Assembly (NCBI GenBank): GCA_021786375.1
Contig: JAJYNL010000044.1
Location: forward strand, 1 to 64,000
Source of the DNA: Actinomycetes bacterium
Lineage (GTDB): Bacteria > Actinomycetota > Acidimicrobiia > Acidimicrobiales > Acidimicrobiaceae
Length of the DNA stretch: 64,000 bases
Direction: 5' to 3'
Position 1 is the stretch's first letter; every line of letters starts with the position of its first letter. This document shows, piece after piece, positions 5,747-40,053 of this stretch. Under the pieces are notes generated by a model. The model saw nothing but the letters and a program-made list of their open reading frames with translations. It made no database searches and had not been told where the DNA came from. A program made the translations under genes and the position numbers.

Positions 5747-6185
5747 TCATGGCTGCTTGCCCGTGCGAGGCCGGCCTGGCAGGTTGGGAGGCAGCTGGTT
5801 CTTGATGTAAGCCTTGATGATCTCCGGTGCTGCTCCGCCTGCCGAGACGACGCAGTACGAGGGGGACCAGAAATGTGCTCCCCATAGGGCGCGTGTGACC
5901 TCCGGCCAGTGTTGTTGGCGCACCCGCATGGAGGAGATCGCCTTCAGGGACATGGCCAGGGTTGAGCGAGCCACCTTAGGTGTGCAGGTGATCACCAGGT
6001 GGGTCTGACGCTGTCGGTCTAGAAAGCATCGAGTGTTGCCCCGTAGCGGGTGCACATCTCCTCGAAGGTGGCCCGGAGAGAATCCCTGGCACGTCGGGTC
6101 ATCACCTTCCCGCGATACTTGGGAACCAGGGCGTTGTGGGCGTGGAGATCATAGACCGCATGACGGCCGGTACGAAAACCCCCTT
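5747..6185 (-). pseudogene. tnpA: TnpA (Y1 transposase) relic
   Basis: Two frames together resemble an IS605-type TnpA. The N-terminal half reads HAVYDLHAHNALVPKYRGK and stops near 6030; after a frame change, THLVITCTPKVARSTL (a degraded HUH region) and FWSPSYCVVSAGGAAPEIIK with the catalytic Tyr region follow, ending at 5747. No start codon is in frame upstream. Frameshift plus missing start make it non-functional. Confidence 0.75.
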
Positions 6186-6359
6186 CATGCCCACACCACC
6201 GCGCCGGTCGCTCACGACCTCCACGAGGCGATCAGGACCTCTCGCACCAGCCGCAAGAACGGGATGTCGGTGCGGGCGGGCTCCTTGGCGGACAAAGAAC
6301 GACCGGCCATTGTCGTTCTCCAGAGGATTCGGCTGGAGGATACGGACTGAGGGCAGACT

Positions 6360-7355
6360 CAACCTTCCGCTTGGCGGAGCAAAGTCGGGCATTGTATTGG
6401 CCCGCCCGACCTCAAGGACTCTGCGAGCGGCGAAGCAGCGGCGGTGGACCTCTGGAGGGGGATCCATCTCTGCCGGCACCCCGACGACCGGCAGCACCGG
6501 CTGCACATCCCGTACTCGACCGAGCGCGCGGTCGGGAGCGGCGAAACCTTACTTCCGTCGACCAGGGCGGCATCGACCCGATGGCAGTTGCCACCTGGGT
6601 GGAGGAGAAGACCATCGGCGTCACCATTGTCCGCGGTCATGAGGGACATGCGACCAAGCGACCGGGGAACAACGCCAGCGGCGGGCTCTGGAAGAAGCTC
6701 TCGAATGCCCCGAACGGCTCCGAGGGTTATCGTGGACTCGTCGGGGCGAAGAAGCGCATGCAGGGTAAGGCGCGCCTGGCGCTCGGGGACTTAGACCGCC
6801 CGTTTGCAGGGAAGAATGCGAACCACGTCATCACCCATAACACCGGACGCCTGGTCCTGGGCGACGTCCGTAGTATCGAGCAGAAACCCAGAGGGAGGCG
6901 GCACATGGGCCGCCACGGTCGCCAGCAGCTCTCGCGAGGGGCGAGAGGCGCTAAGGAAACGTGCCCCGGTGGAAAAGACCGGACTCGATCCCGAGCACAT
7001 TGGCGACTCCGGGTCCACGAAGAGCTGGCCCGGGTGTGGGGTGCCCAACCAGCCATCTGTCCCGCACTACCGGTGCGAGAACCCGGAATGCGGGTTGACC
7101 TTCCGGCGACACGCCGCGGGAGAAATCGACGTACTCCAAAAGGCGTTGTGCGGGGAAACGTACCCGATTGGACCGGATGTGACAGCCCTTGTCACGTATC
7201 CCCGAGCCGCCGGACGTTTGGCTCCTGACCAGCGCAAGGCACACCGCAAGGTGGCCTGCCGCAAGGCCAAAGCTCTGAGTAGCCCCCCGTTCGGGGCCTT
7301 GGTAGTGGAAACGCCGCCAAGCAAGCCAACTCCTATGCCGGCATCGATTCGTTGA
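6360..7355 (+). pseudogene. tnpB: TnpB relic with frameshift and lost catalytic residue
   Basis: Readable pieces in order: GIDPMAVATWVEEK (RuvC-I Asp kept), NTGRLVLGDVRSIEQ, GRRHMGRHGRQQLSRGA, then after a frame change near 6940 EHIGDSGSTKSWPGCG, the zinc-ribbon half CENPECGLTF, and RRHAAGEIDVLQKAL. In active TnpB the last motif reads HRDA(V)GAIN; here the Asp is His. One zinc Cys is also replaced (SWPGCG for SCPGCG). The tail QRKAHRKVACRKAKAL is family-typical. It is dead as a nuclease gene. Confidence 0.8.
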
Positions 7356-7380
7356 TGCCGGAGCAGTTGGTCGCGGTAGC

Positions 7381-9708
7381 GTGATGGAAGCGATGCCAGG
7401 TAACCACAACCAAGCGGCGGAGCCAGGAGCCCAGTCCGTGAGGACGGGTAGGTTCACCAGACGTTCGAATCTGTTCGCATTGAAGCGTGTGCCCCCGGCT
7501 TCGGCCATCGGCCTGACGCCTGCACGCTCCAAGGCCTTCATCGAGTCCGGCTTCGAGAGCCTTTACGACTTGGTGAACTTCTTCCCCCGGCGCTACGTCG
7601 ACCGGCGCAATCACATGGGAATCTGGGAGGCCACCCCGGGAGCCGACGTCCTGGTGATCGGGACGGTGCGTTCGGTGACCTCTCGTTTCGCCAAGGGGCG
7701 GCGCGAGATCGTGCAGGTGGTTGTTTCCGACCAAACCGGCAGTCTGGCGGTGACCTTCTTCAACCAGCCATGGCGCAAGAGACAGCTTCGGCCAGGGCTT
7801 GAGTGTGCTTTGTTCGGCAGGATGGAGGTCTTCGGCCGCAAGCGGCAGATGGTCAACCCCCTGGTGGATCTGATCGGTGACCGCACCGGCCGCATCGTGC
7901 CCATCTACCCGCAAAGCGAGAAGTACCGGTTCAAGCCGAATGAGCTGGTGAAGGCCATAGCCACCACCTTGAAGGAGGCCGGCTGGATCGAGGACCCGCT
8001 CCCGGAAGCGTTCAGGAGGAGCCTGGGCCTGATCGACAGGGATTCCGCTTACCGGCTCATCCACGCACCCGGCGACCCCGAGGATTACGCGCGTGCCCGG
8101 GAGCGTTTGGCCTTCGACGAGCTTCTGCGCATCCAGCTGCAGTTGGTGGCGGCAAAGGTGCACAAGGAGCAGCAGGCAAGAGGCATCCGCCACTCGGTGG
8201 GCGCGCTCGCCTCCAAGGGGCGGGTCCGGCCGGCCGCCCCCGATGGCCGCACGGCCGGGTTCCATACCGACGCCGGAGGTGCTTTCCAGCCGGGCCTCGG
8301 GTTGTCGGACTCCGGTGACCTCGCATCTCGTTTCCTGGCCCAGCTTCCCTTCGTGCCGACCTCCGCCCAGCTGAGAGTGGTAGGGGAGATTGCCATGGAC
8401 ATGGCCTCCGCGGTGCCGATGCACCGCTTGCTGCAGGGTGACGTCGGTTCAGGCAAGACCATGGTGGCCGTTTGCGCAGCACTCTTTGCCATCCAGTCCG
8501 GCTACCAGGCCGTGCTGATGGCACCCACCGAAGTGCTTGCGGAGCAGCACTATCTCGGCATTTCCCGACTCTTGGCTGGCCTGGAGGTGGACGCCAGGGA
8601 GGAATGGGGCCTTTTCGGTGACGGCAGGCGGCCGCTCAAGGTGGAGATGCTAACCAACAAGGTGGTCGGCACACGGCGCAAGTCCCTCCTGGGAGAACTG
8701 CTCGAAGGCCGGGTGGACCTGGTGGTGGGGACGCATGCGCTTCTATCGGAGGGGGTGGAGTTCTCGCGCCTGGGGCTCGTGGTCGTGGACGAGCAGCATC
8801 GCTTCGGGGTGGAGCAGCGGTCCTTGCTGAGGGAGCGCTCACTGGAACGCCAGGAGTTGGAGCCGGATGTGCTGGTGATGACCGCAACACCGATCCCGCG
8901 CACCGCGGCCATGACGATCTTCGGTGACCTCGACTACAGCGTGCTGGACGAGCTTCCCCCCGGCAGGACTCCTATCCGTACCCGCAGGGCACGTAACGAG
9001 GAGGAGATCGACAAGGTGTTCGCACGCCTGGCGCGTGAGGTTGCCTCGGGAAGGCAGGCCTACATCGTTTGTCCCTTGGTGGAGGAGTCCGAGAAAGTGC
9101 AGGCGGCTTCCGCTACGGCGACATACGAGGAGCTGACGGCCACCCGGCTCTCCGACATGCGGGTGGGGCTCCTGCACGGGCAGATGCCGACCGGGGAAAA
9201 AGCACAGGTGATGGAGCGCTTTCGTCAACACGAACTCGATGTCCTGGTATCGACGACGGTGATCGAGGTGGGGGTGGACGTCCCCAACGCAACCGTGATG
9301 ATCATCCTGGACGCCGCCCGCTTCGGTATCGCTCAGATCCACCAGCTGCGCGGCCGTGTCGGCCGTGGTGGGGCGCAGTCATACTGCTACCTGGTGGAAA
9401 CCGTTGAGCTGGACACGGTGGGCGAGGGGCGCCTGCAGGCGTGCGTTGAATCCACCGACGGTTTCTTTCTCGCCGAGCGGGATCTGGAGCTGAGGGGAGA
9501 GGGCACCCTACTGGGAGCGCGCCAGAAGGGCACGTCCGACCTACGAATAGCCTCGTTGGCCAAGGATCGGCGCATCCTCGAATCGGCTCGGGAGGTGGCA
9601 CGCGCCCTGGTCGGGGAGGACCCGACGCTGGGTGCCTTCGAGGAGCTCCGTGGCGAGCTGGAAGGATTCGCTTCGGATCAGGATGCCGAATACCTCTTTA
9701 GAAGCTGA
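7381..9708 (+). CDS. recG: ATP-dependent DNA helicase RecG
   Basis: A 775-residue superfamily 2 helicase that reverses stalled replication forks and processes recombination intermediates. Domains: an N-terminal wedge/OB domain (about 60-200, LYDLVNFFPRRYVDRR), a helicase core with Walker A GDVGSGKT near 355, DEQH box VVDEQHRFGVEQR near 470, motif MTATPIPRTAA, and motif VI QLRGRVGRGG. The length is near the family norm with a slightly extended linker (about 270-310). GTG at 7381 is used; ATG at 7384 or 7393 and GTG at 7438 are also possible because no strong ribosome binding site is visible. IS debris ends about 25 bases upstream. Confidence 0.95.
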   Translation: MMEAMPGNHNQAAEPGAQSVRTGRFTRRSNLFALKRVPPASAIGLTPARSKAFIESGFESLYDLVNFFPRRYVDRRNHMGIWEATPGADVLVIGTVRSVTSRFAKGRREIVQVVVSDQTGSLAVTFFNQPWRKRQLRPGLECALFGRMEVFGRKRQMVNPLVDLIGDRTGRIVPIYPQSEKYRFKPNELVKAIATTLKEAGWIEDPLPEAFRRSLGLIDRDSAYRLIHAPGDPEDYARARERLAFDELLRIQLQLVAAKVHKEQQARGIRHSVGALASKGRVRPAAPDGRTAGFHTDAGGAFQPGLGLSDSGDLASRFLAQLPFVPTSAQLRVVGEIAMDMASAVPMHRLLQGDVGSGKTMVAVCAALFAIQSGYQAVLMAPTEVLAEQHYLGISRLLAGLEVDAREEWGLFGDGRRPLKVEMLTNKVVGTRRKSLLGELLEGRVDLVVGTHALLSEGVEFSRLGLVVVDEQHRFGVEQRSLLRERSLERQELEPDVLVMTATPIPRTAAMTIFGDLDYSVLDELPPGRTPIRTRRARNEEEIDKVFARLAREVASGRQAYIVCPLVEESEKVQAASATATYEELTATRLSDMRVGLLHGQMPTGEKAQVMERFRQHELDVLVSTTVIEVGVDVPNATVMIILDAARFGIAQIHQLRGRVGRGGAQSYCYLVETVELDTVGEGRLQACVESTDGFFLAERDLELRGEGTLLGARQKGTSDLRIASLAKDRRILESAREVARALVGEDPTLGAFEELRGELEGFASDQDAEYLFRS

Positions 9709-26657: not shown

Positions 26658-28328
26658 CTATTGCATCGGCGCCGTGTTCTTTACCAGCGTGGCGATGATC
26701 GCTCGTGCCGCTTCGCGGCCATGTGCCATCGCCTCCACGACGGTGGACGGGCCGATCAGGGCGTCGCCCACGGTGTAGAAGTTGGAGTAGGTGGGTTCGG
26801 CCGCCTTGTGGGTCAGCTCATCGCGGGCAATCGAGAGGTTGCCGATGGCTCCCTCGTCGACTCCGTTGAAGATGCCCGAAGCCACCCAAATGCGGTCGAT
26901 AAGTGCCGGCGGAGTGTAGCGGACGGGGGCCTTGGGAGCCTCGGCCGGAAACTCGCCGGTGAGGCGATAGCCAAGGGCGAGGATAACCATGTCGGCGTAG
27001 ACGACCTCCTCCGTCCCGGGGATGACCTCGGGGAGCTTGGAGGCATCCTCGTGCTTGGTACGGATAAGGGTGACCTTGTTGCCTTCCAGAGTGGTGGCGG
27101 TGGTCAGGAACCTGACCTGCACGCCCTCTTCGCGGGCCTCGGCCAGCTCGTCACGGCGCACCTTGCCGAAGCGCTCGGCGACCCACTCAACACAGAGGGG
27201 CTTGGCGCCGAAGCGAATTGCCATGCGCCCGACGTCCATTGCCGTGTTGCCGGCACCGATGACCAGGATCGACTTGCCTTCCAACTCCGGCAGGTCGCGC
27301 ATTTCGTTGAGCGCCTCGCCGGCCTTGGAGAGGAACTCCATCGCGTCGCTGACGATTGGGCTGTCAATGCCCTTGACGGGCGGGCGGATCGGGGAGCCGG
27401 CTCCGTGAGCAAGGATCACAGCACTATTTGCCAGCCCGAGCTCGCGCAGTTCAGCCTCCTCGACGCGATGCGAGGTGACCAACTCGACACCGAGACTTTG
27501 CAGGGTCTCCCACTGCTCGGAAACCTTCGCGATTGGCAGCGTGAACTCCGGTATGCCGTGGTTGAGAAGCCCACCTGGCGTCTCGGCGGCCTCGAAGACG
27601 GTGACCTTCATGCCGGCCGCCGCCAGTTCCCAGCTCGCTCCCAAGGCGGCCGGGCCTGAGCCGACGATGGCAACGCTGGATCCTGCCGGAGCGGTGGCGG
27701 GGAGGTGTGGCCGGGAGTGGTCGAAGACGTAGCGCTCAACCAGTCCGATGGCCAAGGGCTCTGCACCGGCGAGGTTCCAGGAGCATGCACCTTCGCACTG
27801 GGCGGACTGGTTGCAAACCCTCGAGCAGATCGAGCCGATATGGCTGGTGCGCTCGAAGGCGGTGCGTGCGGCGTCGATATCGCCCGCTACGACGGACCGC
27901 ATCATTGAGGGGATGTCGTTGTGCGCGGGGCATCCGCGAACGCATGTCGGATCGGGGCACTGCAGGCAGCGTGCCGCCTCGGCCATGGCCTCTTCGAGAG
28001 TCTCGAAGCCTTGCCTCGTCTCCTCCCAAGGCTGCAGCGCAGGAATGGAGAAGTGCGCGATGCCGTGCCGGTGGCTTGCTTCCACCTCGGGTTCGCCGTG
28101 CACCTTTATGGCGCTGAACGGGCAGGTGCGCTCGCATTGGCCGCAGGCCACGCAGAGGGAGTCATCGACTGTGACGATCCAGTTGAGCTCGTCGAAGCCG
28201 ATGGCGGCGGTTGGGCAGCGCACGTAGCACTCCTGGCATCCGGCGCAGCGGTCGGTCAGAACTTCGACGCTGTGCTTGGGAAGGGCGCCCGAATCTGCGA
28301 GGCGCGAAGATTGCTGTGTGAGAGTCAT
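26658..28328 (-). CDS. Ferredoxin-GltD-like NAD(P)H oxidoreductase
   Basis: A 556-residue iron-sulfur flavoprotein. N-terminal 2[4Fe-4S] ferredoxin domain: RCAGCQECYVRCP (about 27-39) and LCVACGQCERTCP (about 58-70). Then a GltD-type domain with its own cysteines (CLQCPDPTCVRGCP, ICSRVCNQSAQC), FAD site VAIVGSGPAALGASWELA, NAD(P) site ILVIGAGNTAMDVGRMA and the C-terminal FAD helix YTVGDALIGPSTVVEAMA. It resembles the small subunit of glutamate synthase but no large subunit is nearby, so it likely moves electrons between NAD(P)H and another partner. ATG at 28328 follows TAGGAGG. It lies 12 bases after the polyferredoxin gene, so it is co-transcribed. Confidence 0.85.
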   Translation of the reverse strand: MTLTQQSSRLADSGALPKHSVEVLTDRCAGCQECYVRCPTAAIGFDELNWIVTVDDSLCVACGQCERTCPFSAIKVHGEPEVEASHRHGIAHFSIPALQPWEETRQGFETLEEAMAEAARCLQCPDPTCVRGCPAHNDIPSMMRSVVAGDIDAARTAFERTSHIGSICSRVCNQSAQCEGACSWNLAGAEPLAIGLVERYVFDHSRPHLPATAPAGSSVAIVGSGPAALGASWELAAAGMKVTVFEAAETPGGLLNHGIPEFTLPIAKVSEQWETLQSLGVELVTSHRVEEAELRELGLANSAVILAHGAGSPIRPPVKGIDSPIVSDAMEFLSKAGEALNEMRDLPELEGKSILVIGAGNTAMDVGRMAIRFGAKPLCVEWVAERFGKVRRDELAEAREEGVQVRFLTTATTLEGNKVTLIRTKHEDASKLPEVIPGTEEVVYADMVILALGYRLTGEFPAEAPKAPVRYTPPALIDRIWVASGIFNGVDEGAIGNLSIARDELTHKAAEPTYSNFYTVGDALIGPSTVVEAMAHGREAARAIIATLVKNTAPMQ

Positions 28329-28342
28329 CTTTCCTATGCCTC

Positions 28343-29884
28343 CTAGTTAGCCGCGGCCATGGGGATGTAGAGGAGGGCAAGGGCTATGCCCATGACCAGG
28401 ATGGTGGCCACGAAGTAGAGCCGAGGAGCTATGGAGCGGGGCTTGGCCAGCACCAGGTCCGTCTTGGAGATCTTGAGCGAGGCGTAGATCGAACCGACGA
28501 CGCCCAGCAACATCACGGCCACCTGGACCGCGATAATGCGCGGGTCGGGCAGGATCCGGAAGTTGTAGAGGGAGGTAACGGAGACTCCGAAGGGGTGAGC
28601 CACCGCCGGGACGATCCTGGTTGCGTGCTTGAAGAACTTCGGCAGCTGGCGAGCGAAGTAGTCAGCGCCGACGATGGGGATCATCGCGTACATTCCAGCG
28701 ACGAACCAGTTGCGGAACTCACTGCGCCGCGTCATGAAGTTGCCGGTGGTCTTGGCGATGGTGCCCTTGGAGAAGAGCTTCCCGCCGATCTTGAAGACCA
28801 GGGCCGGGACGAAGGCGAAGAGGGCGATGAAGCCGAAATAGTCGATCGGGTTCGGGTACTGCGGCCACCCGGTGTGAGTGTTCAGCCAGGTGTCCAGGGG
28901 CCCGTAGAAGCTGAGAGCGTTGACCTGCTGGAAGGCCACCAGGCCGAGCAGGATCGCTGCAACCACCGCGACGTCCATCCGCTTGCGGCTGGGGGCGACG
29001 ACGGAGGTGAGGGGCTTCTGCACGTAGAGGCCGACGTTGTTGGTGGGGCAGGCCTTGTAGCACTCGCTGCAAAGGCCGCAGTAGAGGTTCGAATCAGCGC
29101 TGCCGGGCCAGGTGTACCAGGGGCAGCCGTAGCCTTCCTCGCCACCACGCATGCACGACTTGGTCTCGCATGCCTGGCAGGCGTCGCGGTCCTTGGTGCG
29201 GAAGCCGGCGAAAGATCCGACTGCTCCTACGGTGCCGATCAGCGAGCTGAGCGGGCAGAGGTAGCGGCAGAAAGTGCGGCGCTCGAAGAGCAGGAAGACG
29301 ATAGTGGCCGAGAGCACGATTCCGATGACCATGAAGGAGGTATCATGCGGAGTGCCCGGGCCGGCGATATTGAAGAACTCCTCGATGTAGGTGAGAAGCA
29401 CGAAGGTGCCCACGGAAGAGATGAGGCCCAGACGCGCCAGGCGGTCGGGGTACTTCAGCCCGAGGCCAAGGGCCTTCTGGGTCCTCTTAAAGAAGGTCTT
29501 GCGCTGGATCCACTCCGCGAAGCCTCCGAAGGGGCACATTGAGCACCAGGCGCGTCCGACGACCACCATTAGGACGAAGACCACGCAGAACCAGATGTAC
29601 CAGGTGATCGCGGTCGCGAAGTTCAGGCCGGGAGTTACCGTGCCGAGCAGGCCGGTGAAAATTACCAGCCAGAAGACGATCTGGTTGGGGACGATGAGGA
29701 CGAACTGCAGCCAACGCTTCTTGAGAAGCTTGCCGACTAGCGGGATCCTGGAGAGGTCCAGCTTGGGGTCGGTCTTGGCGAAGTGTCCGACGGTATTAGT
29801 TGGCGCTTTGGTGCGCAGATGGACGGCGACCGCAATGGGATCGGGCGCCTTGGCCTTTTGTTTGGGATCCGTGACGAAGGTCAT
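28343..29884 (-). CDS. NosR/NapH-like membrane polyferredoxin
   Basis: A 513-residue membrane protein with about nine hydrophobic segments. Two CxxxCP loops (WCSMCPFGG, CRYLCPLSS) mark the NapH/NosR/CcoG group. They are followed by an unusual cysteine-rich stretch (CQACETKSC, YGCPWY, YCGLCSECYKACP) likely holding [4Fe-4S] clusters. The C-terminal third carries four more membrane helices. Such proteins pass electrons between quinones and soluble iron-sulfur partners; the partner here is probably the downstream flavoprotein. The ATG at 29884 (AGGA upstream) is preferred over GTG 29920 or ATG 29908. Its physiological acceptor is unknown. Confidence 0.8.
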   Translation of the reverse strand: MTFVTDPKQKAKAPDPIAVAVHLRTKAPTNTVGHFAKTDPKLDLSRIPLVGKLLKKRWLQFVLIVPNQIVFWLVIFTGLLGTVTPGLNFATAITWYIWFCVVFVLMVVVGRAWCSMCPFGGFAEWIQRKTFFKRTQKALGLGLKYPDRLARLGLISSVGTFVLLTYIEEFFNIAGPGTPHDTSFMVIGIVLSATIVFLLFERRTFCRYLCPLSSLIGTVGAVGSFAGFRTKDRDACQACETKSCMRGGEEGYGCPWYTWPGSADSNLYCGLCSECYKACPTNNVGLYVQKPLTSVVAPSRKRMDVAVVAAILLGLVAFQQVNALSFYGPLDTWLNTHTGWPQYPNPIDYFGFIALFAFVPALVFKIGGKLFSKGTIAKTTGNFMTRRSEFRNWFVAGMYAMIPIVGADYFARQLPKFFKHATRIVPAVAHPFGVSVTSLYNFRILPDPRIIAVQVAVMLLGVVGSIYASLKISKTDLVLAKPRSIAPRLYFVATILVMGIALALLYIPMAAAN

Positions 29885-29910
29885 GGTCCTGCACCCCCTG
29901 TTTTTCATTA

Positions 29911-29938
29911 GAACGTTCACTGACGTACTAAACGTTCA
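29911..29938. promoter_or_regulatory. Candidate operator repeats in divergent promoter region
   Basis: The octamer AACGTTCA occurs twice (29912-29919, 29931-29938), 19 bases apart, within the 112-base gap between the polyferredoxin gene and the Rrf2 gene; AACGTT recurs at 30000-30005 at the Rrf2 start. The spacing, about two helical turns, would suit a dimeric regulator. Binding by the Rrf2 protein is inferred. Confidence 0.4.
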
Positions 29939-29996
29939 TTTGATCACTCTAAGTTGGGAGTGTCAAATCGGCACGCCCGATTTTTTAGGAGGGTGG

Positions 29997-30485
29997 ATGA
30001 ACGTTACGCTTTCCCGCCGCGGTGATTACGTCGTGCGTGCGGCCATTTGCCTTTCACGTGCCTTCCAGGAAGGAAAGGGCTGCAAGATCAGGGAAGTCGC
30101 GGACCAGGCGGCGATCCCGGCAAGCTTCGCTCCACAGGTCATGGCAGATCTTGTCCGCTCCGGCCTCGCTACTTCGCGCGCGGGGCGCAATGGAGGTTAC
30201 AGGCTCGCACGGGATCCGGCCGATATTTCCGTACTCGAGGTCATCGAGGCCGGCGAGGGCGAAATCCATTCGGACCTATGCGCCATGGGAGAGGGCCCCT
30301 GCTATTGGGAGAACGTCTGCCCGCTTCACGAATCGTGGCGCGAGGCGCTGCATAGTTTCCGCAAGGGCCTGTCCGGGTCCACCTTGGCGAGCCTCGCCCA
30401 AAGGGACCGTGAGCTCGAGGCCGGGCTCATCGAGGCTCCGGCGGACAGCCACAGGCACGCCCACGCGAGCAACGGCAAGTACTGA
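29997..30485 (+). CDS. Rrf2-family iron-sulfur transcription regulator
   Basis: A 162-residue winged-helix regulator. Seen: LSRRGDYVVRAAICLSRAF, IREVADQAAIPASF (recognition helix region), LATSRAGRNGGYRLARDP (wing) and three cysteines in DLCAMGEGPCYWENVCPLH (C-x6-C-x5-C), close to the cluster ligands of NsrR and IscR. It probably senses nitric oxide, iron-sulfur status or redox through a cluster. It is transcribed away from the polyferredoxin/flavoprotein operon, which it likely controls. ATG at 29997 follows AGGAGGG. Confidence 0.88.
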   Translation: MNVTLSRRGDYVVRAAICLSRAFQEGKGCKIREVADQAAIPASFAPQVMADLVRSGLATSRAGRNGGYRLARDPADISVLEVIEAGEGEIHSDLCAMGEGPCYWENVCPLHESWREALHSFRKGLSGSTLASLAQRDRELEAGLIEAPADSHRHAHASNGKY

Positions 30486-32192: not shown

Positions 32193-33371
32193 GTGGCCGT
32201 GACCCAGGAACTGGTTACGACGGCCGAGATAATGGGGACCGGCTATAGCGAGCATCCGGACCCGGTCCTGGCGGCGGGGGAGTGCGTGCGTGCTGCCCTT
32301 GGTGGCCGAATCCCCAGCGAGGAAGATCTTGTTTTCGTCTTCCCGACCATCGATTACGAGCCTCATGCGTTCCTCGAAGCCGCAGAACGCCACGCCCACC
32401 CGGCACGAGTAGTGGGATGCACGTCTTTTGCCGGCTTCACTCGAGACAAGCAGGTTGCCAGGGGCTGCGTAGCCACTTACTTGCCGGCTAATGGCTGCTC
32501 ATTTGGGGTGGCGGCCGTGGATCCGCTCGGCGACGACATGTTCGGTGCCGCCAAGAGGGTAGCCGAAGTTGCCATCGAGCGTGGTGGAGAGGTCCATCCT
32601 CACTCGGTGCTGCTCGTGTTGTCAGACGGACTCGCCGGCGATCAACGGGAAATTGTGCGAGGCACCTACGCCGTCACCGGGGCAAAAGTGCCGCTCGTTG
32701 GCGGCGCAGCGGGAGAGAACCTGACCCTGCGCGGCACCTACCAGTTCGCTGAAGGCCGAGTGATGACCAACGGTGTTGTCGCAGTGTGGATCAACACTCC
32801 ATATCGTCTCGGCGTGGGCGTGCGGCACGGATGGCGCCCGTTGGGCCGCCCGCAGATCGTCACACGGGCTAGCCGCAACATTGTGTACGAACTCGATGGG
32901 CGCCCCGCGGTCGAAGCCTATTTCGAGGTACGCGGGGCGGAACTGCTCAACCATGAAAGCATCGGCGGTCAAGTTATGAACCATCCTTTCGGGGTGGTCG
33001 CCGACTCGGGCCGCTACGAGATCCGCCACATCATGAACCGCGTCGAGGACGGCTTGGTGCTCTTCGGCTATGTCGGCGAGGGCGCGGTTGTCCGCGTAAT
33101 GGCGAGCGACTGCGACGACTTACTGGGTGCCGCTGCCTTGGCAGCCGGCGACGCTCTCGCCCAGTTGGAGACAGCGCCACGCGGTGCTCTCGTATTTAGC
33201 TGCACGGCGCGCGTGCCATTACTAGGGGATCGCCTTCCGAGTGAGATCGCGGCGGTCTCTGATGGTCTGGGCGGGTGCCCGGCCGGGGGGTTTTTCACCC
33301 TCGGCGAGTTCGCCCGGGTGACCGGGACAACTGGGTTTCACAACGCAACCGTCGTAGTACTTGCCTTCTGA
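32193..33371 (+). CDS. FIST-domain sensor protein
   Basis: A 392-residue protein with FIST N-terminal (about 25-215; VVGCTSFAGFTRD, VLLVLSDGLAGDQ, VPLVGGAAGENL) and FIST_C (about 220-380; AVEAYFEVRGAEL, LLGDRLPSEIAAVSDGLGG) domains. FIST proteins are predicted ligand sensors, perhaps for amino acids, usually tied to signalling proteins. No membrane or signal segment is seen, so it is cytoplasmic. GTG at 32193 follows GAGGGG; GTG 32199 is an alternative. It lies 13 bases before the GGDEF-EAL gene and is almost certainly co-transcribed. Confidence 0.88.
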   Translation: MAVTQELVTTAEIMGTGYSEHPDPVLAAGECVRAALGGRIPSEEDLVFVFPTIDYEPHAFLEAAERHAHPARVVGCTSFAGFTRDKQVARGCVATYLPANGCSFGVAAVDPLGDDMFGAAKRVAEVAIERGGEVHPHSVLLVLSDGLAGDQREIVRGTYAVTGAKVPLVGGAAGENLTLRGTYQFAEGRVMTNGVVAVWINTPYRLGVGVRHGWRPLGRPQIVTRASRNIVYELDGRPAVEAYFEVRGAELLNHESIGGQVMNHPFGVVADSGRYEIRHIMNRVEDGLVLFGYVGEGAVVRVMASDCDDLLGAAALAAGDALAQLETAPRGALVFSCTARVPLLGDRLPSEIAAVSDGLGGCPAGGFFTLGEFARVTGTTGFHNATVVVLAF

Positions 33372-33384
33372 CACAGGGTGATCG

Positions 33385-35754
33385 ATGCCTGAAGATTACG
33401 GAGTCGGGGACGGTTCCGAATTCGCCCCCGCAGAGATCCGCATGCTTCGCGCTCGGCTTGAGATGGCAGAGCGCGAAGCCGGCCGAACGCTATTCCGAGC
33501 TACTCGGCTTGCCCAGGTCGTCAAGGTGCTCGGAGATCACTCGGAGCTCGCGGAAATGTCCGAGCGGGCGGTTTGCGAGGTGGCGGAGTTGTTCTCCGCC
33601 GACCTGGCATTGCTTTTGCTTGGGGAGGATGCCGCCTTGGGGGTCGAGGCACACTGGGGTGTGCGCCCCCGGGACGTGCCCGCCACGCCGGTGCGACTGC
33701 CGGAGGGTTTCGCAGAGCTGATCAGGCCGGTACTAATCGGGGCGGCCGAGGAAATCGGTTATCCGACCTGGCTGAGCTCCTACTCTCCGCGCCATGTGGC
33801 GTATGGGCGGCTGGTCACGCGCGGGGAAACCCTTGGCTACATCATGTTGGCTCGCAGGGCGGAGAACCCGTTTGAGACGGCCGACGCTCACGAGTTGCAG
33901 GCACTCGCCACTCGTATCGCTCTGGCGCTGGACAACGGGCTGCTCTATAAAAGCATGCAGGACCAGCTTCGGAGGATGGACCGCCTTTACCGGGTGACGA
34001 CCGAGCTCGCCGGGATTCCTCATCTCGAACTCGAAGAAGTTGCCGATGCGGTGGCCAGAGCCGTGCGCAACGAGGTTGCCGTTTCGTCGGTGGCTCTGTA
34101 CGTGCCGGACGGAGAGGATCTTCGAATGGTCGGTTGTGCAGGGCCGATCGGCAGCCTTCCTGAACGCGCCTCCCGCGAGTATCTCGCCGGAACCGAGCTC
34201 GCACATGAGATGCTTCTTCTGCGCAGCGGTGATCCGGATTCGGGAGTCGTCGTCGTCTCCCAGCCGCCGCGCGACGGCACTGATGAACGGGCGTTGCTGT
34301 CGCACATGATGGAGCTTGCGGGCCTGGTCATTGACAAGGCGCGTCTCCATGACCTCACCCGGCGGCAGGCCGAGAGGGACATCCTGACCGGCTTGCCGAA
34401 CCGCCTCCTGCTGAGTCGGCGGATGGAAGAGGCTGTGGCCAGAGCCAAGCGGCGGGGTTCCCACGTAGCGGTGATTTTTCTCGATTTGGACCGCTTCAAA
34501 GTAATAAACGACAGTCTCGGCCACGCAGCGGGAGACGAGCTGCTGGCTGAGATCGCCGCTCGCCTTCAAGCGGTTACCCGATCGGGAGACACGGTAGGAC
34601 GCCTCGGCGGAGATGAGTTCGTCGTCGTTTGCGAAGACGTGGAGCATCCCGAGCAGGCGTTCGCGGCGGCTCGTCGCATGCAGGCGATGGTGGGGGATTC
34701 GGCGATTGATTTGAATGGCGCTCCCGTCTCGGTGACGGTGAGCCAGGGGATCGCCATCACCGGTAGATCCGGATACTCCGCCGAGGCGCTTCTTCGGGAT
34801 GCGGACACCGCGATGTACCGCGCCAAGGAACGAGGCCGAAATCGCATAGAGGTCTTCGACAACGAGTTCCGGACTCAGGCTGTGGCGCTCCTGCGCGGGG
34901 AGAGGGCTCTCCGCGATGCGCTGGAGAACGGCCGTCTGCGAGTGCTCTACCAGCCGATCATGAGGCTTCCGGACCGAGTCATGGTAGCCGCCGAGGCGCT
35001 GATGCGGTACGAGGACGCAGATGGACGAATCGTGTCGCCTGCGGAATTCATCGATGTTGCCGAGGACAGTGGTCTGATTGTGCCCATGGGGGAATGGATC
35101 TTGGCCGAGGCGAGCCGTCAGGCGGCGCGTTGGCGAAGCCGGCTTCCCGCGGCCTGTCCCCTCGCCGTGAGCGTCAACCTGTCTGTCCGACAGCTTGCCC
35201 AAGGGGATTTTGCCGAGGTGGTCTCAACGATCGTCGCCGATACCGGCGCACGCCCTCAGGACCTGCTGCTGGAGATCACCGAGAGCGTCTTGATGCACAC
35301 CGGCCCACGTATGGTCGACACACTTGGGGCGATCAAGGATCTCGGAATCAGGATTGGGATCGACGATTTCGGCACCGGGCATTCCTCGCTGGCGTACCTG
35401 AAGCGATTACCGATAGATTTTCTGAAAATCGACCGTAGCTTCGTTGACGGGTTGGATGACGACCCGGAGGATTCGGCGATCGTGGCGGCCATTATCGGGC
35501 TGGCCCGCGCTCTGGGATTGCAAGCGGTGGCCGAAGGGGTCGAGCAGGAAGTTCAGGTGGCCAGGCTTGTCGAACTCGGCTGTGAACGCGCCCAGGGTTT
35601 CTTGTTCGCCCGGCCCATGGCCGCTGAAGCGATTTCCCGTTTGGTCGAAGGTTTGGTTGCAGCGCCCGCATTCGAAGGTGACTCCACATCAGGCGCAATT
35701 GCGGTTGGTCTCACCGGCGTCGAGAGGCCTGACTCCCATGGGGTCCGCTGTTAG
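33385..35754 (+). CDS. GAF-GAF-GGDEF-EAL cyclic-di-GMP signalling protein
   Basis: A 789-residue cytoplasmic protein. Domains in order: a short coiled coil (15-40), GAF-like sensor 1 (about 40-190), GAF-like sensor 2 (about 205-335), GGDEF (about 340-500) and EAL (about 510-765). Cyclase motif GRLGGDEF near 407 is intact, with an RxxD inhibitory site (RSGD) five residues before it. EAL hallmarks are intact: AAEALMRYE, NLSVRQL, LEITES, IDDFGTGHSSLAYL, FLKIDRSFV, AVAEGVE. Both synthesis and hydrolysis of c-di-GMP are therefore possible. The adjacent FIST protein is a likely input partner. ATG at 33385. Confidence 0.93.
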   Translation: MPEDYGVGDGSEFAPAEIRMLRARLEMAEREAGRTLFRATRLAQVVKVLGDHSELAEMSERAVCEVAELFSADLALLLLGEDAALGVEAHWGVRPRDVPATPVRLPEGFAELIRPVLIGAAEEIGYPTWLSSYSPRHVAYGRLVTRGETLGYIMLARRAENPFETADAHELQALATRIALALDNGLLYKSMQDQLRRMDRLYRVTTELAGIPHLELEEVADAVARAVRNEVAVSSVALYVPDGEDLRMVGCAGPIGSLPERASREYLAGTELAHEMLLLRSGDPDSGVVVVSQPPRDGTDERALLSHMMELAGLVIDKARLHDLTRRQAERDILTGLPNRLLLSRRMEEAVARAKRRGSHVAVIFLDLDRFKVINDSLGHAAGDELLAEIAARLQAVTRSGDTVGRLGGDEFVVVCEDVEHPEQAFAAARRMQAMVGDSAIDLNGAPVSVTVSQGIAITGRSGYSAEALLRDADTAMYRAKERGRNRIEVFDNEFRTQAVALLRGERALRDALENGRLRVLYQPIMRLPDRVMVAAEALMRYEDADGRIVSPAEFIDVAEDSGLIVPMGEWILAEASRQAARWRSRLPAACPLAVSVNLSVRQLAQGDFAEVVSTIVADTGARPQDLLLEITESVLMHTGPRMVDTLGAIKDLGIRIGIDDFGTGHSSLAYLKRLPIDFLKIDRSFVDGLDDDPEDSAIVAAIIGLARALGLQAVAEGVEQEVQVARLVELGCERAQGFLFARPMAAEAISRLVEGLVAAPAFEGDSTSGAIAVGLTGVERPDSHGVRC

Positions 35755-39709: not shown

Positions 39710-40053
39710 GGCGCACGGAGCCGCCCTGTAGGCGGGGTTCTGTCTGGCCCTCGTCGGGCCGCGGTGGCCATCCATCTAAGCGGTCTACCAGGAGCTTCCA
39801 GGCTTTCGCCTGGCGACGGGCCGCCGATCACTCCTATTTGACCTTGCTTCGGGTGGGGTTTACCAAGCCGGCGAGTCACCCCGCCGCTGGTGCGCTCTTA
39901 CCGCACCTTTTCACCCTTACCCCCAATGGGGCGGTGTATTTTCTGTTGCACTTTCCGTCAGGTCGCCCTGCCTCGCGTGAGCACCCTGCCCTGTGAAGCC
40001 CCGACCTTCCTCGAGCCTTGCGGCCCGCGGCCACCCGGACGACTCCATACGCC
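39710..40053 (-). ncRNA. rnpB: RNase P RNA (bacterial class A)
   Basis: The RNA subunit of RNase P, the ribozyme that trims tRNA 5' ends. Read on the minus strand, it has the conserved blocks GAGGAAGGTCGGGGCTTCAC, AACAGAAAATACACCGCC, GGTAAGGGTGAAAAGGTGCG and AGACAGAACCCCGCCTACAG. The ends were set by helix P1: 16 bases at the 5' end (40053-40038) pair with the last 16 (39725-39710) with four G-U pairs. A possible -10 box TATTCT lies at 40066-40061. Length about 344 nt. It is convergent with the zinc-ribbon gene. Confidence 0.95.

Follow-up and report, generated by a model that had tools for sequence, protein, structure and literature searches.

A 64,000-nucleotide stretch of DNA (the window: positions 1 to 64,000, forward strand, of contig JAJYNL010000044.1, assembly GCA_021786375.1), from the 2.83 Mb draft genome of a member of the Acidimicrobiaceae, a family of acidophilic iron bacteria, was found to carry a three-gene redox module in which a NapH/NosR-like membrane protein and a GltD/NfnB-like flavoprotein are encoded side by side and a regulator of the Rrf2 family is encoded divergently from them. 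A dedicated Rrf2 regulon using a 23-bp operator is strongly supported, because the predicted operator recurs at module promoters across the Acidimicrobiales and tracks the presence of a nearby rrf2 gene. All three genes lie where a preliminary description of this DNA had placed them, and the module and its candidate operators are arranged as follows.

26658-28328, minus strand: GltD/NfnB-like flavoprotein P0003, 556 amino acids (open reading frame, Pfam domains and comparison with homologues)
28343-29884, minus strand: NapH/NosR-like integral membrane polyferredoxin P0002, 513 amino acids, ATG at 29884 (Pfam and model)
29913-29935: operator 1, ACGTTCACT-GACGT-ACTAAACGT, one mismatch to ACGTNNAGT-N5-ACTNNACGT
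29932-29954: operator 2, overlapping the first and 19 bp further on, ACGTTCATT-TGATC-ACTCTAAGT, two mismatches
29997-30485, plus strand: Rrf2-family regulator P0001, 162 amino acids, divergent from the membrane-protein/flavoprotein pair

The scan, which took one genome per species, yielded 319 relatives of the membrane protein, and the best 80 were kept; nearly all of these 80 are labelled Actinobacteria and many, judging by isolate names, come from acid mine drainage or peat. Restriction of the pair to this strain had been named beforehand as grounds for abandoning the idea of a module; what we found was that every one of the 77 loci with sufficient sequence downstream has the flavoprotein gene next and in the same orientation (median gap 16 bp), and that an Rrf2 gene is present in 47 of the 55 loci with long enough flanks. 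The proposal of a self-contained redox module has therefore held, as a pair conserved far beyond the strain and provided with a dedicated, divergent regulator of the iron-sulfur (Fe-S) type. Within the family the membrane protein is encoded in 20 of 20 good genomes, and in an order-level sample its occurrence is patchy (35 of 153 good genomes). Named carriers are Acidithrix ferrooxidans and Ferrithrix thermotolerans, Ferrithrix being classified in the Acidimicrobiaceae. Farther afield, the homologues seen were distant ones with other partners only, except at a locus from another family (L120), where the genes flanking the pair were named by eye as those of a LuxR-type response regulator and of a 7Fe-type ferredoxin.

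The operator consensus, a 23-bp inverted repeat ACGTnnAGT-N5-ACTnnACGT, was recognised by eye on 43 divergent intergenic regions of relatives, 33 of which contain it with at most two mismatches, against 0.04 expected from dinucleotide-preserving shuffles. Because of this recognition by eye, a held-out set of 43 loci in which the genes are not divergent was also tested, and there the operator lies near the membrane-protein start in 17 of 43 (0.05 expected). When 1.19 Mb of loci were considered together, 62 of the 66 matches coincided with the start of a membrane-protein or Rrf2 gene, and the operator was present in 46 of 66 loci with a nearby rrf2 gene compared with 4 of 20 without one (Fisher P = 0.00016). 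A second copy at 19-bp spacing is also found in close relatives (L029-L035). The preliminary description had reported AACGTTCA repeats in the shared promoter region; the sequence is indeed there, at 29912-29919 and 29931-29938, but its two occurrences are the shared ACGT cores of two overlapping inverted-repeat operators rather than simple repeats. A sigma-70 promoter scan of the intergenic region gave no match, and an Rfam scan gave no RNA in the module region. A wider regulon was considered on account of a site 27 bp upstream of a gene for a 165-amino-acid protein on contig C75 of the same genome, and was rejected when the site proved to be kept only in the closest genomes; an operator-like site on contig C114 lies inside small reading frames and may be due to chance. 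The 165-amino-acid protein itself (L126:1550-2047) has no Pfam match and is encoded in each of the family's 20 good genomes.

Control of the module may not be uniform. In about 34 loci, genes for a LuxR-type response regulator and a membrane PAS histidine kinase adjoin it (e.g. L020:5976-8128 and L045:434-1861). Loci with this gene pair and no rrf2 mostly lack the operator, which is present in 2/13 only, and this suggests that in some lineages the regulator has changed from Rrf2 and its operator to the two-component pair.

The regulator encoded in the window matches PF02082 at 100 bits and contains the ligand set C95-x6-C102-x5-C108-x2-H111, that is, the C-x6-C-x5-C motif noticed in the preliminary description together with a histidine that it had not mentioned. 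These residues align with the three cysteines and the histidine of IscR (the first spacing being C-x6-C here and C-x5-C in IscR, and the solved IscR proteins in the alignment carrying Cys-to-Ala changes), and all four are kept in 63 of 69 homologues, the exceptions being mostly second copies or fragments. They point to an IscR-type Fe-S cluster, and iron-sulfur or redox sensing is plausible. The IscR equivalog score falls below its cut-off (57.9 against 207.6 bits) and no isc operon adjoins the gene. Cluster ligation in RsrR is by Glu8/His12/Cys2, a pattern that does not apply to the present protein, which has Arg8 and Val12. Orthologues from most other genera possess an extra C-terminal domain weakly like Polyketide_cyc2 (START-like; e.g. 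L020:12287-13252 and L022:9506-10390), which is absent from the window's own protein. The earlier suggestion of a nitric oxide role is unsupported: the NsrR equivalog score is far below cut-off (42.3 against 182 bits), the ligands are IscR-like, no gene related to nitric oxide is a recurrent neighbour, and the NosP/FIST-like gene at 32193, 1.7 kb away, does not recur beside the module in relatives.

The membrane protein matches the Pfam domain Fer4_5 (PF12801; E 1.3e-12, 47.9 bits against a cut-off of 22) and, weakly and below their cut-offs, the curated NapH models (39 and 27.9 bits against 213 and 234); Pfam gave no FMN_bind match, i.e. none to the flavin mononucleotide (FMN)-binding domain found in NosR, RdhC and flavinylated NapH-like proteins. 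An AlphaFold2 model (alignment of 65 sequences, mean predicted local distance difference test score 78) and positive-inside counts together indicate nine long transmembrane helices, two of which form a single long helical stretch divided by charge (residues 389-432). The number of basic residues rises and falls regularly from loop to loop through the first six (12, 0, 9, 0, 13, 0), the sidedness of the last loops (4, 4, 2, 0) being less clear. The cysteine motifs are C114-x2-CP, C206-x3-CP, C236-x2-C-x4-C-x9-C254 and C269-x2-C-x2-C-x3-CP; all 12 cysteines are conserved, in 64 or more of 65 homologues, and sit in positively charged loops, and in view of the alternating loop charge they presumably face the cytoplasm. 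The original portrayal of a nine-helix NapH/NosR-like protein with an unusual cysteine-rich domain was thus borne out. This is the sole Fer4_5 protein of its genome, and a role in nitrate or nitrous oxide reduction was rejected since there is no second such protein and none of the neighbour families conserved across 86 loci is a nitrate or nitrous oxide reductase (the remainder of the genome was not directly searched for these genes). In other lineages, genes for distant homologues that share 27-36% identity with the membrane protein adjoin genes that look, by eye, like those of small cupredoxin-like exported proteins (L123:3154-10721, L124:8198-10145 and L026:2968-4883), in one case also with a molybdopterin-type enzyme operon, and a cyanobacterial relative on a Pseudanabaena plasmid (L028:6648-9341) is fused to a cyclic-nucleotide-binding domain.

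The flavoprotein begins with two Fer4 motifs making up a 2[4Fe-4S] domain (C28..C69), followed by Fer4_20 (C121..C182; 105 bits) and by Pyr_redox_2 (75 bits), with flavin adenine dinucleotide (FAD)- and NAD-binding Rossmann domains; the preliminary description had correctly seen a GltD-like protein with an extra 2[4Fe-4S] domain. Glu198, which corresponds to the family's glutamate cluster ligand and is probably a ligand here, is invariant (47/47 homologues). The curated GltD model scores below its cut-off (217 against 483 bits), and the nearest proteins of solved structure are subunits of Nfn and of glutamate synthase. A glutamate synthase function, proposed at the outset as an explanation that might displace the module, was ruled out, as gltB is located elsewhere, on contig C73, with its own gltD beside it. 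Complex I genes are also present in the genome, and the module is therefore neither glutamate synthase nor the sole entry of NADH electrons to the membrane.

In NfnB-type proteins a Tyr-Arg-Arg stretch holds the NADPH phosphate, and Asp or Glu in place of the NADPH-binding arginine is the usual sign of NADH use. This stretch (YRR), present in NfnB and in two GltD-like paralogues from the same genome, is replaced by Val-Glu-Trp in the flavoprotein (E381-W382); across the homologues Asp or Glu is found at the arginine position in 46/47 and Trp in 45/47. Because the arginine pair has given way to Asp/Glu-Trp, the flavoprotein is probably specific for NADH. A second, diverged copy of the pair (L024:8733-12181), with no nearby Rrf2 gene, keeps Arg-Arg at the nicotinamide site and may use NADPH. 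In 29 of 47 sampled homologues a flavodoxin-like domain, which Pfam matches weakly and the model shows as a confident alpha/beta fold, is added at the C terminus. Most other genera have this domain; the window's own flavoprotein lacks it. The model of one long-form homologue matches solved Nfn structures at 30-31% identity, and the best 50 matches of the fold search were Nfn, GltD and dihydropyrimidine dehydrogenase proteins, which do not bear on the added domain, so that its assignment as a flavodoxin depends on a sequence motif and the weak matches.

On balance, and with guarded confidence, we take the module to be a dedicated, locally regulated device for electron transfer between NADH and the membrane. 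The gene set, its linkage, the operators, the conserved ligands and the changed cofactor site are features of the compared sequences; the repression, its signal, the quinone, the electron donor and the direction of flow are what we infer. The cytosolic flavoprotein would bind NADH, its FAD would take up two electrons, and these would be split into single electrons over the four predicted [4Fe-4S] clusters of the flavoprotein, passing on to the cytoplasm-facing clusters of the nine-helix protein and finally to the menaquinone pool, the quinone being suggested by the relationship to NapH alone. Where the C-terminal flavodoxin-like domain is present, it would probably serve either as a shuttle based on FMN or as a second way out for electrons. 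Working alongside complex I, the module would in effect adjust the redox balance between NADH and quinone; a safety valve or low-oxygen branch is its likeliest role, with reverse flow possible. The Rrf2 protein, with its IscR-type cluster, would bind the 23-bp operators and repress the operon as well as its own gene, the latter by way of the divergent promoter; if the cluster were lost or its redox state altered, repression would be relieved.

Several points weigh against this reading. Judged on the window by itself, the motif does not reach significance (two matches against 0.86 expected at up to three mismatches), its significance stemming instead from the between-genome comparison, and the genome-wide operator count does not exceed that of a reversed-pattern control (4 against 3). 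The operator statistics are drawn from related, non-independent genomes and from a motif first picked by eye, and some loci, mostly those with a two-component system nearby, have no operator. Binding of the operator by Rrf2 is read from sequence, and the NADH preference from a motif replacement. No solved structure like the membrane protein was found, by sequence or by fold; NapH-family proteins, moreover, usually pass electrons from quinol, and the direction of flow may be the reverse of that proposed.

Such reverse flow is the alternative that survives best, although we consider it unlikely. The membrane protein would oxidise menaquinol, and the proton gradient would help to push electrons to the flavoprotein, giving NADH for biosynthesis in iron oxidisers whose quinol is poorly suited to NAD+ reduction. 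The cultivated carriers Acidithrix and Ferrithrix do oxidise iron (PMC8790237), and NapH-like proteins are thought to take electrons from quinol in some cases (PMC8238504); however, complex I could perform NAD+ reduction itself, both organisms are described as heterotrophs in paper titles and still keep the module, there is no sign of ion pumping, and control by an Fe-S sensor is not obviously tied to autotrophy. Somewhat more doubtful is a bifurcating or low-potential device, in which, much as in FixABCX or Nfn, the FAD would share out NADH electrons between quinone on the one hand and flavodoxin or ferredoxin on the other, and so yield the latter in reduced form. The bifurcating Nfn subunits are the nearest solved relatives, and the invariant Glu198, the flavodoxin-like domain of many homologues and the 7Fe-type ferredoxin gene in one relative would all fit; yet non-bifurcating GltD has the same glutamate and fold, the window's flavoprotein has no flavodoxin domain, and the Nfn partner subunit is outside the conserved set, no NfnA-like gene having been seen among the conserved neighbours of the module. 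We give marginally less credence again to a new membrane electron-bifurcating complex, switched by an Fe-S Rrf2 protein, in which NADH electrons would part at the GltD/NfnB-like FAD, some reaching quinone via the NapH-like protein and others a low-potential flavodoxin or ferredoxin; if it exists, acidophilic Acidimicrobiia would have an Rnf- or Fix-like supply of low-potential electrons.

A stress-defence reductase seems to us just as improbable as that complex. Here the electrons would go into repairing or detoxifying the damage that nitric oxide, oxygen or metals cause, or into reducing ferric iron when oxygen is low, rather than into general redox balance. Fe-S Rrf2 regulators often respond to such signals, ferric iron is reduced by the cultivated carriers when oxygen is absent (PMC8790237), a GAF-type sensor kinase adjoins the module in one relative, and a gene cluster for a diiron AurF-like protein recurs nearby in eight loci. 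Fe-S assembly genes (nifU-like, iscA-like and mrp-like, named by eye) also adjoin the module in parts of the family, but they are confined to a few close lineages; nitric oxide reductase, flavohaemoglobin and hybrid cluster protein were not seen in the conserved neighbourhood, and the pair has no reductase of the periplasm or cell surface beside it.

The recurrent cluster just mentioned (L042, at 5786-7822, L073, L075, L082, L091, L097, L098 and L106) consists of three genes, that of an AurF/DUF455-like diiron protein being joined by those of an unknown protein and of a cysteine-rich 2[4Fe-4S] ferredoxin; its co-regulation with the module was considered and rejected, the operator-like sites upstream being weak and present in three loci. 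In the window itself, 32193-35754 contains the FIST-domain gene, whose product is weakly similar to NosP, and after it a GAF-GGDEF-EAL gene; the two may form a pair of sensor and cyclic-di-GMP enzyme, which in relatives is not linked to the module. Rfam places a class A RNase P RNA gene at 39713-40046 on the minus strand.

Our search of the literature found no description of the membrane-protein/flavoprotein pair or of the module, which we regard as an undescribed combination, or new variant, of known parts. It is a redox unit present in every good genome of an acidophilic iron-bacteria family, with a precise predicted operator and regulator, and the electron transport of its carriers, including ferric iron reduction, is poorly understood. 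If the NADH-to-membrane reading is correct, these organisms would have a further path connecting NADH with the quinone pool, together with an Fe-S Rrf2 regulon whose recognition sequence is new.

Each part has recognisable counterparts. The membrane protein resembles membrane ferredoxin proteins of the NapH/NosR type, including the flavinylated NapH-like ones (PMC8238504), in its Fer4_5 domain, its CxxCP/CxxxCP pairs in the membrane part and its cytoplasmic ferredoxin-like domain, but it differs in having nine helices, one unusual set of cysteines and no FMN-binding domain, and in place of adjoining nitrate or nitrous oxide genes it is accompanied by a cytosolic NAD(P)-type flavoprotein. The latter shares with NfnB and GltD the Fer4_20 clusters with their glutamate ligand and the FAD and nicotinamide Rossmann domains, and departs from them in its extra N-terminal 2[4Fe-4S] domain, the replacement of the arginine pair by Asp/Glu-Trp, the lack of an NfnA or GltB partner and, often, a C-terminal flavodoxin-like domain. 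Proteins of the AegA/YgfT type similarly have N-terminal ferredoxin clusters joined onto a GltD-like body; the flavoprotein is, however, far under the curated cut-off (AegA, 191 of 1003 bits), and the membrane partner and regulator are new. The regulator has the Cys3-His pattern of IscR and, like RsrR, a pair of inverted-repeat sites within a divergent promoter, but its operator sequence and target genes are others, it scores below the IscR, NsrR and RirA model cut-offs, and whereas RsrR has hundreds of sites it appears to serve essentially one promoter. RsrR binds 11-3-11 inverted repeats, two of them within its own divergent promoter (PMC5015018), and the NsrR site, gATGyAT-N5-ATrCATc, has an N5 centre (PMC1274295); the operator described here likewise has an N5 centre and fits the 11-3-11 arrangement, while its sequence differs from that recognised by RsrR.

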